Positions 11,875-18,105 of a stretch of 18,353 nucleotides of DNA are shown one piece after another. The DNA is from a bacterium (GTDB taxonomy: Bacteria; CAIWAD01). The stretch's first letter is position 1. The number at the start of each line of letters is the position of its first letter. The notes under the pieces are model-generated. The model was not told the DNA's origin. It saw nothing but the letters and a program-made list of their open reading frames with translations, and ran no database searches. The translations under genes were made by a program, and so were the position numbers. The stretch covers positions 1-18,353 of the forward strand of contig JAUXWS010000037.1 of assembly GCA_030685015.1 (NCBI GenBank), read 5' to 3'.

Positions 11875-11900
11875 GGTTCCTAGCTGGGGCTATTCACGAG

Positions 11901-11909
11901 TTATCCACA
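11901..11909 (+). promoter_or_regulatory. Perfect DnaA box in dnaA leader
   Basis: TTATCCACA, exact consensus. It lies between the dnaA -10 element and the start codon, so DnaA binding would block its own transcription. It may also belong to the origin. Confidence 0.8.
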
Positions 11910-11940
11910 AGTACCCAACCCACTGGGTGATGCGGGGCGC

Positions 11941-11969
11941 AATATAGCGGGCCACTCCAGGGGAGTCAA
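11941..11969 (-). promoter_or_regulatory. Sigma70-type promoter of dnaA
   Basis: On the minus strand TTGACT (11969-11964), a 17-base spacer and TATATT (11946-11941) form a near-consensus promoter. Transcription would begin near 11934, giving a leader of about 60 bases before dnaA. Confidence 0.75.
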
Positions 11970-12168
11970 GGATGGTCCTCTTGAAATGCGGGAAAAGAGG
12001 TGGCGAGGGAAGAAATTCTAATGGATCCACTTGACCATCAAATGGAACAATATGCACGAGCTTGAGCCTCAAGCGCTTCGACCCGGAGCGCCTTATTCTG
12101 AAATTCAAAGAACAATTCTCCATACGCCACTCTTCGGGGCGACAGCCCTTTCCAACAAGGGCTTCTGG

Positions 12169-12177
12169 TTATCCACA
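12169..12177 (+). promoter_or_regulatory. Perfect DnaA box next to AT-rich stretch
   Basis: TTATCCACA, exact consensus, immediately followed by the A/T-rich stretch at about 12178-12227. It is a candidate initiator-binding site for origin melting. Confidence 0.75.
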
Positions 12178-12379
12178 AGATTTCTACATGAATTGATGAA
12201 CATTGAATTATTAATGACAAGGGTTTTTCCCCACCTTGGACCTGCTTCTTGTGTACGGGGAGGACGCCGACAAGGGGTCCACGGGATGACCTTAGGCCGC
12301 AGGTAACGGCGGAGTCCTTACCTTGCCCTGGCCCGACGACGCGGCGGCATGACCCGGCACGAATTCTGGAAGGGCCCTC

Positions 12380-13429
12380 ATGGATCCGAACCAGCTGGAG
12401 CGATGGCGCATGACCCAGTACGCATGCTCGGGCGGCTGAGCGGCAAAACTGGGTCCGGTGGACCTGTTCAAGCTGTTGCCGGCCGCCCACGCGGATGAGC
12501 GCCTCCTGGTCGGCATGGAAACACACGACGACGCCGGCGTGATGCTGCTGAGGCCGGATCTGGCCCTGGTCAGCACGGTGGATCTCATCACCCCGGTGGC
12601 GGACGACCCATACCTGTTCGGCCAGGTCGCCGCCGCCAATTCCTTGAGCGACATCTATGCCATGGGCGGCGAGCCCATCTGCGCGCTCAACATCTGCTGC
12701 TTTCCAGAGTCGGGGCCGGCGCCGGAAGCGCTGGCCCGCATTCTTGAGGGCGGGCAAGAACGATTGCGGGAGGCGGGCGCCCTGCTGCTGGGCGGCCACA
12801 CGGTGCGGGATCCCGAACTCAAGTACGGCCTCGCTGTCACGGGCACCATCCATCCGGACCACATCCTGCGCAACCACACGGTGCAGGAAGGCGATGCACT
12901 GGTCTTGACCAAGCCCCTGGGCACAGGCCTGCTGTTGACGGCCCAGAAAAAGGGCGAGTTGGAGGAGGGGCAGTTTGACGCGGCCCTGGCCGGCATGGTC
13001 CGCCTCAATCGCGACGCTGCCCGCGCCATGCTCGCGGTGGGGGTCCACGCCGCCACCGATGTGACGGGATTCGGACTGCTGGGGCATCTGTGGGAAATGC
13101 TTCAGCCGGGCGGGCACGGGGTGGCGCTACACTTGTCGTCCCTGCCGCTTTATGACGGCGCCCTCGCCGCCGCCCGGCGCCACGGGGTGTCCGGACCCAT
13201 GCGTCGCAATCTCGCCCTGCCCGCCGCCTTCTTCGGCCTGCCGGATGACCTGCCACCGCCCTGGACGGCGCTCATGGCCGATCCACAGACATCGGGCGGC
13301 CTGCTCATCGCCGTGGCGCCGGATCGGGCCGGCGAGCTGCTGAAGCGGCTGGCTGATGGCGGAGACGCCGCCGCCCGCCTGATTGGCGAGGTGCGATCCG
13401 CCGGTGGCGAATCCCTTCTGGAAATCTGA
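12380..13429 (+). CDS. selD: Selenide, water dikinase (selenophosphate synthetase), selenocysteine-containing
   Basis: SelD makes selenophosphate from selenide and ATP, the selenium donor for Sec-tRNA and selenouridine. The gene reads through an in-frame TGA at 12437-12439. The N-terminus is then MTQYACSGG-U-AAKLGPVDL, with Sec20 and Lys23 at the same spacing as catalytic Cys17/Lys20 of the E. coli enzyme (known for the family). Downstream motifs fit: THDDAGV, STVDLITPVADDPYLFG, SLSDIYAMGG, TDVTGFGLLGHL and DPQTSGGLL. The total is 349 residues, a normal length. ATG 12380 has GGAAGGG five bases upstream. A shorter GTG start at 12458 would delete the catalytic Sec/Lys segment and is rejected. 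It is transcribed away from dnaA and followed by an HU gene. Confidence 0.93.
12437..12466 (+). promoter_or_regulatory. UGA selenocysteine codon with SECIS-like hairpin
   Basis: The UGA (12437-12439) is followed by a stem of seven pairs, TGGGTCC (12450-12456) with GGACCTG (12460-12466), two of them G-T, closing a GGT loop (12457-12459). The loop begins 17 bases after the UGA. Bacterial SECIS elements are known to place a small G-containing apical loop about 16-37 bases downstream, where SelB binds. Confidence 0.75.
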
Positions 13430-13543
13430 TATTCAGCCACCCATCACCCCCCCGGTGACTACACTCATCCCGGCGGCGCCGGTCAAGGATTGTTCCACCC
13501 CGCGCAGCCCGGTCGTTGTCCATTTCAGGGAGGGGGTCGCCAC

Positions 13544-13951
13544 ATGAAGACGTACATCAAGAAGGATCTGATCGACCGAGTGGCGGAACAGACCGGCGTG
13601 CGGCTGGTGGACAGTTCGCGCATGGTGGATGCGCTATTCCAGGTCCTGCGGGATGTCATGAGCGAGCCGGGGCCCGACTGCCGCATCGAAATCAGGGATT
13701 TCGGCGTCTTCGAGGTGAAGCAGACCCGGGCCAAACCCAATGCGCGCAATCCCCGCACCAATGAGCTGGTGTACGTACCCGCCCGGCGCAAGACTCATTT
13801 CCGCCCGGGCAAGCATTTGAAGGAAGCCCTGCGTCGGTTGCGCGAGGACGAGTCCCAACCAGAGGGGCAAGCGCCGAAGGAGCCGGACCCGGTCGTCCAC
13901 CAGCTTCCGGCCACCCAGCCGATCAGCCGCGAGCTGATGGCCGACGGCTGA
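13544..13951 (+). CDS. HU/IHF-family DNA-binding protein with C-terminal extension
   Basis: This is a nucleoid-type dimeric DNA-bending protein. Residues 1-95 match the family: helical KKDLIDRVAEQTGV start, IEIRDFGVFEVKQTRA, the beta-arm tip with the intercalating-proline context ARNPRTNE, and THFRPGKHLKEALRR. The usual length is about 90-100 residues; this has 135. The extra ~38 residues (PEGQAPKEPDP, VHQLPATQP) are Pro/Gln/Glu-rich and probably disordered. ATG 13544 is preceded by GGGAGGGGG at good spacing; an upstream in-frame TTG (13490) is less likely. It lies 114 bases after selD in the same direction. Its stop codon directly abuts the stop of the convergent outer membrane gene. I cannot tell whether it is HU or IHF-like. 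Confidence 0.88.
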   Translation: MKTYIKKDLIDRVAEQTGVRLVDSSRMVDALFQVLRDVMSEPGPDCRIEIRDFGVFEVKQTRAKPNARNPRTNELVYVPARRKTHFRPGKHLKEALRRLREDESQPEGQAPKEPDPVVHQLPATQPISRELMADG

Positions 13952-16720: not shown

Positions 16721-17839
16721 TTAGCTCTCGATCAATTCAATGTTGGCCCGGGGCAGCGTGACGCGCTGGCCGGCCTCCGTCTCCACTTCGAGGACGCGGA
16801 CACGGGCGCCGCTCTCCACCATGGTCGGCTCGGGGGGCAGGGCCGTCACCCGGCCCTTCTGTCCAAACCAAGGCTGGCGGATGATGCGTACCTCGCTTCC
16901 GATCTCCATGGCGCCGGTGTGGAGAGACTCGGCGACGAGAGTCTGGTCGGCCAGCGGCACCACGATCTCCGGCCGGATGACGCCGGCGCGGATCTGGGTG
17001 GCGCCATTGACTGATGCATGGCGGCCGGCCAGACTGGAGAGCAACTCCCAGGTGCGGCGGGTCATGGGGATCTCGCCAAAGCCCTCGGTCAGGATGAGGG
17101 TGATGCCGATCTCCTCGTTCCCCGTGATGGCCACGCCCAGCTCGTAGCCGAGCAATTCCTTCAGGTCGCCCTTGTCGAAACCGCCCGCGATGATGCCCGA
17201 GACCCCCATCTCCCGCGCCTTGAACAGCGCCTCGAGCGTGACCATGCTGCCCCCCACCACCAGTTTGCCGCGCTGCTCCGGCTTGATGTGGGCCGCCGTC
17301 AACTTCTCCGCGGGTCCGGCGACAGCCGGCTGCAACTCGCCCCAGGCTTCGCCGCCCACGCCGAAGATGCCCTGGATGTAGGCCCCCTTCGTGCGGACGG
17401 TCACCCCCTCCCGCTCGTGGACTTCCACCACCTTGCCATCCATGAAGGCGTTCACTTCCACCGGGACGGGCGGACGCTGAAGGATGACCTGACCCGTGCG
17501 CAGGGAGATGGACTCCACCGTCCCGTCGATGGGACTCTCGCATGTGGATTTGAAGAGGCCGAAGAAGGAGCGGGAAAGAGCGATGACTTCGCCCTTGGCC
17601 ACCGGATCCTTCTCCCGCTTGAGCATGGCGTCCTTGAGTTCGCCCGGCTCCACGCCCAGGACGTGGGCCACCTGGACGGGATAGATGTCGCCGGGCAGCA
17701 GGGTGCGGGCCACCACGTCGCTGTGTCGCACATGGTCGCCCTCCTTGACGACGACATCCCCCAACAGGGGGAGCCGCCGTTCCTTGGTGACCACCGTGCC
17801 ACGCGCCACGCGCAAGCCGGGAGTGAAGGAGCTGGCCAT
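16721..17839 (-). CDS. Conserved protein with barrel-sandwich-like segments and C-terminal KOW-like domain, function unknown
   Basis: A 372-residue soluble protein with no signal peptide. The N-terminus (TPGLRVARGTVVTKERRLPL, then GDVVVKEGDHVRHSDVVARTL) and residues ~85-125 (DPVAKGEVIALSR, SPIDGTVESISLRTGQVIL) show the glycine-turn pattern of biotinyl/lipoyl-like barrel-sandwich domains as in RnfC, but without a modifiable Lys motif. A middle region at ~190-290 (GKLVVGGSMVTLEALFKARE, SGIIAGGF) looks alpha/beta. Residues 315-335 (SEVRIIRQPWFGQKGRVTAL) fit a KOW motif, which binds RNA or protein in NusG and ribosomal proteins. ATG 17839 has GAGG upstream; an 82-codon upstream extension crosses repeat DNA and is rejected. 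It is the first gene of an operon with the outer membrane protein. Confidence 0.6.
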   Translation of the reverse strand: MASSFTPGLRVARGTVVTKERRLPLLGDVVVKEGDHVRHSDVVARTLLPGDIYPVQVAHVLGVEPGELKDAMLKREKDPVAKGEVIALSRSFFGLFKSTCESPIDGTVESISLRTGQVILQRPPVPVEVNAFMDGKVVEVHEREGVTVRTKGAYIQGIFGVGGEAWGELQPAVAGPAEKLTAAHIKPEQRGKLVVGGSMVTLEALFKAREMGVSGIIAGGFDKGDLKELLGYELGVAITGNEEIGITLILTEGFGEIPMTRRTWELLSSLAGRHASVNGATQIRAGVIRPEIVVPLADQTLVAESLHTGAMEIGSEVRIIRQPWFGQKGRVTALPPEPTMVESGARVRVLEVETEAGQRVTLPRANIELIES

Positions 17840-17921
17840 GGAACCTCGCGCTTTGGTGCCGCGAAAGTGGCAAAATGCGCCCGGTCCCCCTGCCCTGCCT
17901 GGCGGCCTGAACCGCGGAGAC

Positions 17922-17960
17922 CACCTTCCCCCTGCCAGGGGGAAGGCCGGGATGGGGGTT
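17922..17960. repeat. 39-bp hairpin repeat, copy B
   Basis: Matches 4871-4909 at 38 of 39 bases. The 10-bp stem (17924-17933 with 17937-17946) is intact and the single difference is in the loop (gcc instead of ccc). Confidence 0.8.
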
Positions 17961-17973
17961 TGCCCCAGGGTCA

Positions 17974-18061
17974 CTGTTTTCGGCCTCGTCACCCGCCGCG
18001 TCGGATCTTGCGGCGCAAGCGCCGCGCCCTCTTCCCACCTTTCTTCTGGCGAGAAGAAAGG
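17974..18061. repeat. ~90-bp structured repeat, copy 1
   Basis: Shares ctgttttcggcctcgtc, then ggatcttgcggcgcaagc and gccgcgc, with copy 2. It has two hairpins: GCGGCG/CGCCGC (18010-18025) and cctttcttc/gaagaaagg (18038-18046 with 18053-18061). The second stem differs from copy 2 but stays fully paired. Confidence 0.75.
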
Positions 18062-18105
18062 TTGCGCCAAGGAAGCGCCCTCCAAGACATGCAGGGCCCC
18101 AACTA

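Follow-up and report, generated by a model that had tools for sequence, protein, structure and literature searches.

The selD gene in the 18,353-nt window (the whole stretch of DNA that was analysed) almost certainly encodes a selenocysteine (Sec)-containing selenophosphate synthetase, as judged from its sequence and from that of its homologues. The active-site UGA is predicted to be read as Sec, so the enzyme would need selenium to be made. The reading frame contains a single in-frame TGA at 12437-12439 and is then open until the TGA at 13427-13429, and the N-terminus of the readthrough product is MDPNQLERWRMTQYACSGGUAAKLGPVDLFKLLP... The first-pass annotation had described an upstream frame that passes through one TGA to an ATG with a ribosome-binding site, and the sequence reads in this way. 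The features of the locus are as follows.

12380..13429, + strand: selD, selenide, water dikinase with predicted Sec20 (349 residues plus stop; TIGR00476 and E. coli SelD 3u0o)
12364..12379, + strand: ribosome-binding site GGAAGG (about 12368-12373), 6 nt before the ATG at 12380
12437..12439, + strand: UGA codon of predicted selenocysteine 20, at the position of E. coli Cys17 (codon in homologues, alignment)
12450..12466, + strand: putative SECIS hairpin of 7 pairs with the GGU apical loop at 12457-12459 (folding, comparison)
12458..12460, + strand: GTG, apparent start of a truncated reading of 323 residues, inside the SECIS loop and probably unused

Against TIGR00476, the readthrough protein reaches 347 bits, passing the equivalog cut-off of 125, and the match covers residues 10-316 and profile positions 1-310, that is, it begins at the first position of the profile. 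Whole-length homology to E. coli SelD (PDB 3u0o) was found with an E value of 3e-68, and the alignment places U20 opposite Cys17 and Lys23 opposite Lys20, in agreement with the earlier proposal of a SelD catalytic segment carrying U at the Cys position and Lys three residues later. The two enzymes thus correspond at the residues Cys17/Lys20 and U20/K23, whereas the E. coli protein has Cys in a GACGCK-type loop (GAGCGCK) and the protein encoded here has the predicted Sec in GGUAAK. With the Sec-containing bacterial SelD proteins of TIGR00476 it shares Sec at the catalytic position of the N-terminal loop, a Lys three residues further on, a SECIS element directly downstream, and the co-occurrence of SelA, SelB, tRNA-Sec and FdhA; no difference of substance from these proteins was seen, and the identity outside the genus is 40-51%.

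A mechanical gene call for selD starts at the GTG at 12458, within the hairpin loop, and yields a product that retains both AIR-synthase (AIRS) domains without the catalytic loop, bearing out the expectation that simple gene calling would lose the active site. Taken at face value, this open frame of 323 residues with two AIRS domains could represent a truncated SelD-like AIR-synthase protein behind a coincidental upstream frame, a reading that is very unlikely. The 20 upstream codons are conserved as protein in the sister species together with the start codon and ribosome-binding site, the upstream residues match the family profile, and the truncated reading of the sister species first starts at another codon (TTG). 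The GTG at 12458 is therefore probably not the true start of selD, and the truncated reading is refuted in practice by the codon found at the position of the UGA, which is either TGA or a Cys codon in all readable homologues.

The conservation of this codon carries the Sec assignment. Two other species of the genus (76% and 71% identity) have this frame, likewise with a single TGA at the corresponding position, and both have a start codon and an AG-rich ribosome-binding site at the same place; the UGA is kept in all five genomes of the class that were examined (5/5). A set of 104 SelD homologues, drawn from relatives and from named genomes across many phyla, has TGA at the homologous position in 58 members, TGT or TGC in 45, and an unread (masked) N in one; no other amino acid or stop occurs in the readable homologues (0). 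Besides the present gene, the TGA occurs in the two sister species, in two more class members and in 53 further homologues. This column of TGA or Cys codons is regarded as the decisive evidence for the predicted Sec reading.

The same column bears on two other explanations of the in-frame stop. With one stop in the frame of a draft genome, selD could be a pseudogene, or, as the first-pass annotation had allowed for, a TGC or TGT might have been misread as TGA during sequencing or assembly. The same TGA is present in the separately assembled genomes of the sister species, in the class members and in the 53 further homologues, and it is therefore not a sequencing error; moreover, the remainder of the frame is intact and the genome contains the Sec machinery, leaving a defective or misread gene extremely improbable. 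The frame would be open likewise if UGA were decoded as another residue, such as Trp in a changed genetic code. However, selD itself terminates in TGA (13427-13429), the only alternative used by the homologues is Cys, and a tRNA-Sec with a UCA anticodon is encoded in the genome, so that decoding as a residue other than Sec is hardly credible. Around the SECIS, synonymous sites of the three sister species give a suggestive but weak signal of conservation, with 5 of 10 shared degenerate codons identical in codons 21-32 versus 58 of 188 elsewhere.

The seven-pair hairpin with a GGU loop, reported earlier to start 10 bases past the UGA, is present as claimed: TGGGTCC (12450-12456) pairs with GGACCTG (12460-12466) around the loop GGT (12457-12459), two of the pairs being G-U, and the hairpin begins 10 nt and its loop 17 nt after the UGA. 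The bSECIS model specifies an apical loop of 3-9 nt with a G in the first two positions, a stem of 4-16 pairs, a distance of 16-37 nt from the UGA, and a minimum free energy of at most -7.5 kcal/mol (PMC13188914). With its GGU loop, 7 pairs and 17-nt spacing, the hairpin fits this model, and folding gave -8.2 kcal/mol for the hairpin alone and -8.8 kcal/mol with flanks; the fixed 7-pair structure evaluates to only -7.1 because of the terminal U-G pair. The UGA-loop distance is close to the minimum allowed by the model (PMC13188914), so that the element belongs to the short form seen in 18 of the 58 Sec-SelD sequences, the present one included.

Considered as a single sequence, the hairpin is only moderately unusual, with a folding z of -1.88 against dinucleotide shuffles. 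The synonymous-codon control gave p = 0.0125 for the energy, p = 0.06 for a generic hairpin and p = 0.02 for a stem at the exact place. Approximately 12% of the TGAs in the window are followed by a generic SECIS-like hairpin of equal or greater stability; because of this, the hairpin alone is not decisive, and a generic hairpin criterion at the observed energy was not accepted as the only evidence. A stricter combination of a GG loop, at least 6 pairs and a distance of 16-22 nt is found after 1 of the 502 TGAs, namely that of selD. Part of the stem is dictated by the conserved GPxDL codons, and the hairpin is therefore not independent of the protein. An Rfam scan of the window gave no match at the gathering threshold.

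Comparison across homologues points to a role of the hairpin in UGA readthrough. Hairpins are stronger after TGA than after Cys codons (mean stem score 6.3 vs 4.1, Mann-Whitney p = 4.5e-10), and the synonymous-codon z also differs between TGA and Cys homologues (mean -1.26 vs -0.35, p = 8.8e-7), with both p-values being too small because the rows are related and not independent. In 19 sequences of the same geometry, stem pairs 2, 3 and 5 show more than one Watson-Crick type, as in compensatory changes: C-G/G-C at pair 2, U-A/A-U/C-G at pair 3, and G-C/A-U at pair 5. A relative in the family (G003) has the hairpin CAGUCC-GGUC-GGACUG over the peptide SPVGL, and a relative in the class (G004) has GACCC-GGUC-GGGUU over DPVGL, both at the same place, so that class members with differing peptides (GPVDL, SPVGL, DPVGL) retain the loop position and the GGU(C) loop. 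The hairpin is identical in sequence in the two sister species, yet their fold energy is no lower than in synonymous controls (p = 0.26 and p = 0.40).

The source genome (3.6 Mb, 97% complete) contains the machinery for Sec insertion, and selA, selB and selC, which had been predicted to lie elsewhere in the genome and whose absence had been named as an argument against the Sec reading, were all found. The selA gene is located at C67:52249-53385 (386 bits), and its neighbour selB begins at C67:54242, about 860 bases past the selA match, as one frame of 640 residues. The tRNA-Sec gene (selC) with the anticodon tca (UCA) is located at C59:55448-55541 (59 bits). In the sister drafts, selB in G001 and selC in G002 were not found over the cut-off, which is attributed to their completeness of 90-91%. 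Family searches of the genome for further selenium-related genes covered FdhA and SelU; the selenouridine synthase SelU was not found, and a second selenoprotein gene was identified on C99 (L148:2327-5383, - strand), encoding an FdnG/FdhA-type formate dehydrogenase alpha subunit. This periplasmic enzyme of 1018 residues has a twin-arginine start, and its UGA lies exactly at the Sec position of the Sec-containing Desulfovibrio and E. coli enzymes (ARIUHSSTVASLA), with a hairpin of its own downstream. The Sec trait of this organism is therefore not explained by SelD alone.

Three species of the genus have selD between dnaA and an HU-like gene (12380-13951). Two DnaA boxes with the exact sequence TTATCCACA, at 11901 and at 12169, lie in the gap between dnaA and selD (11875-12379) and suggest that this gap is probably oriC; the genes that run leftward from the gap are dnaA, dnaN, recF, a DciA-like gene, gyrB and gyrA. 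The family's other genus has the HU gene directly after dnaA (L154:1070-3376), and its selD, encoding a SelD of 43% identity, is on another contig. A quick SelD tree did not join the two genera of the family, its forks being weak. It is conceivable, though doubtful, that the Sec-dependent selD was acquired by, or moved to, the origin-side site in this genus, which might tie the dosage of the selenium pathway to replication. Near the window edge, an intact-looking ISXO2/IS1595-type transposase gene (905-1903, - strand; PF12762, PF12760) overlaps the 3' end of a partial RHS-like frame (1-984, no Pfam match). A further frame at 16721-18085 (- strand), with its proper start probably near MASSFTPGLRVARGTVV, has no Pfam match and is conserved in the sister species G001 (L134:12440-13558).

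By analogy with the known family, we infer how the Sec decoding, chemistry and feedback of SelD would proceed. Translation would start at the ATG at 12380, and at the UGA at 12437 the hairpin, 17 nt further on, would tether the SelB-GTP-Sec-tRNA(Sec) complex, which would insert Sec instead of allowing termination. Sec20, in the flexible N-terminal loop, and Lys23 would then contribute to the synthesis of selenophosphate from selenide and ATP, and the selenophosphate would supply SelA for the Sec-tRNA needed by SelD itself and by formate dehydrogenase. The product of SelD would feed the Sec-tRNA pathway, and its own synthesis would thus depend on that pathway.

Sec-SelD is a textbook selenoprotein family, and this arrangement has long been known from many bacteria. 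Among bacterial selenoproteins, the Sec-containing SelD is the second most widespread (PMC13188914, PMC1794560), so the gene described here adds one more of a known type and leaves the knowledge of selenium use unchanged. It also illustrates how the active site of such a gene is lost in simple gene calling. For the class, which is sparsely sampled (five genomes in this analysis), it provides a well-supported Sec-SelD accompanied by the complete Sec machinery and by a Sec formate dehydrogenase.
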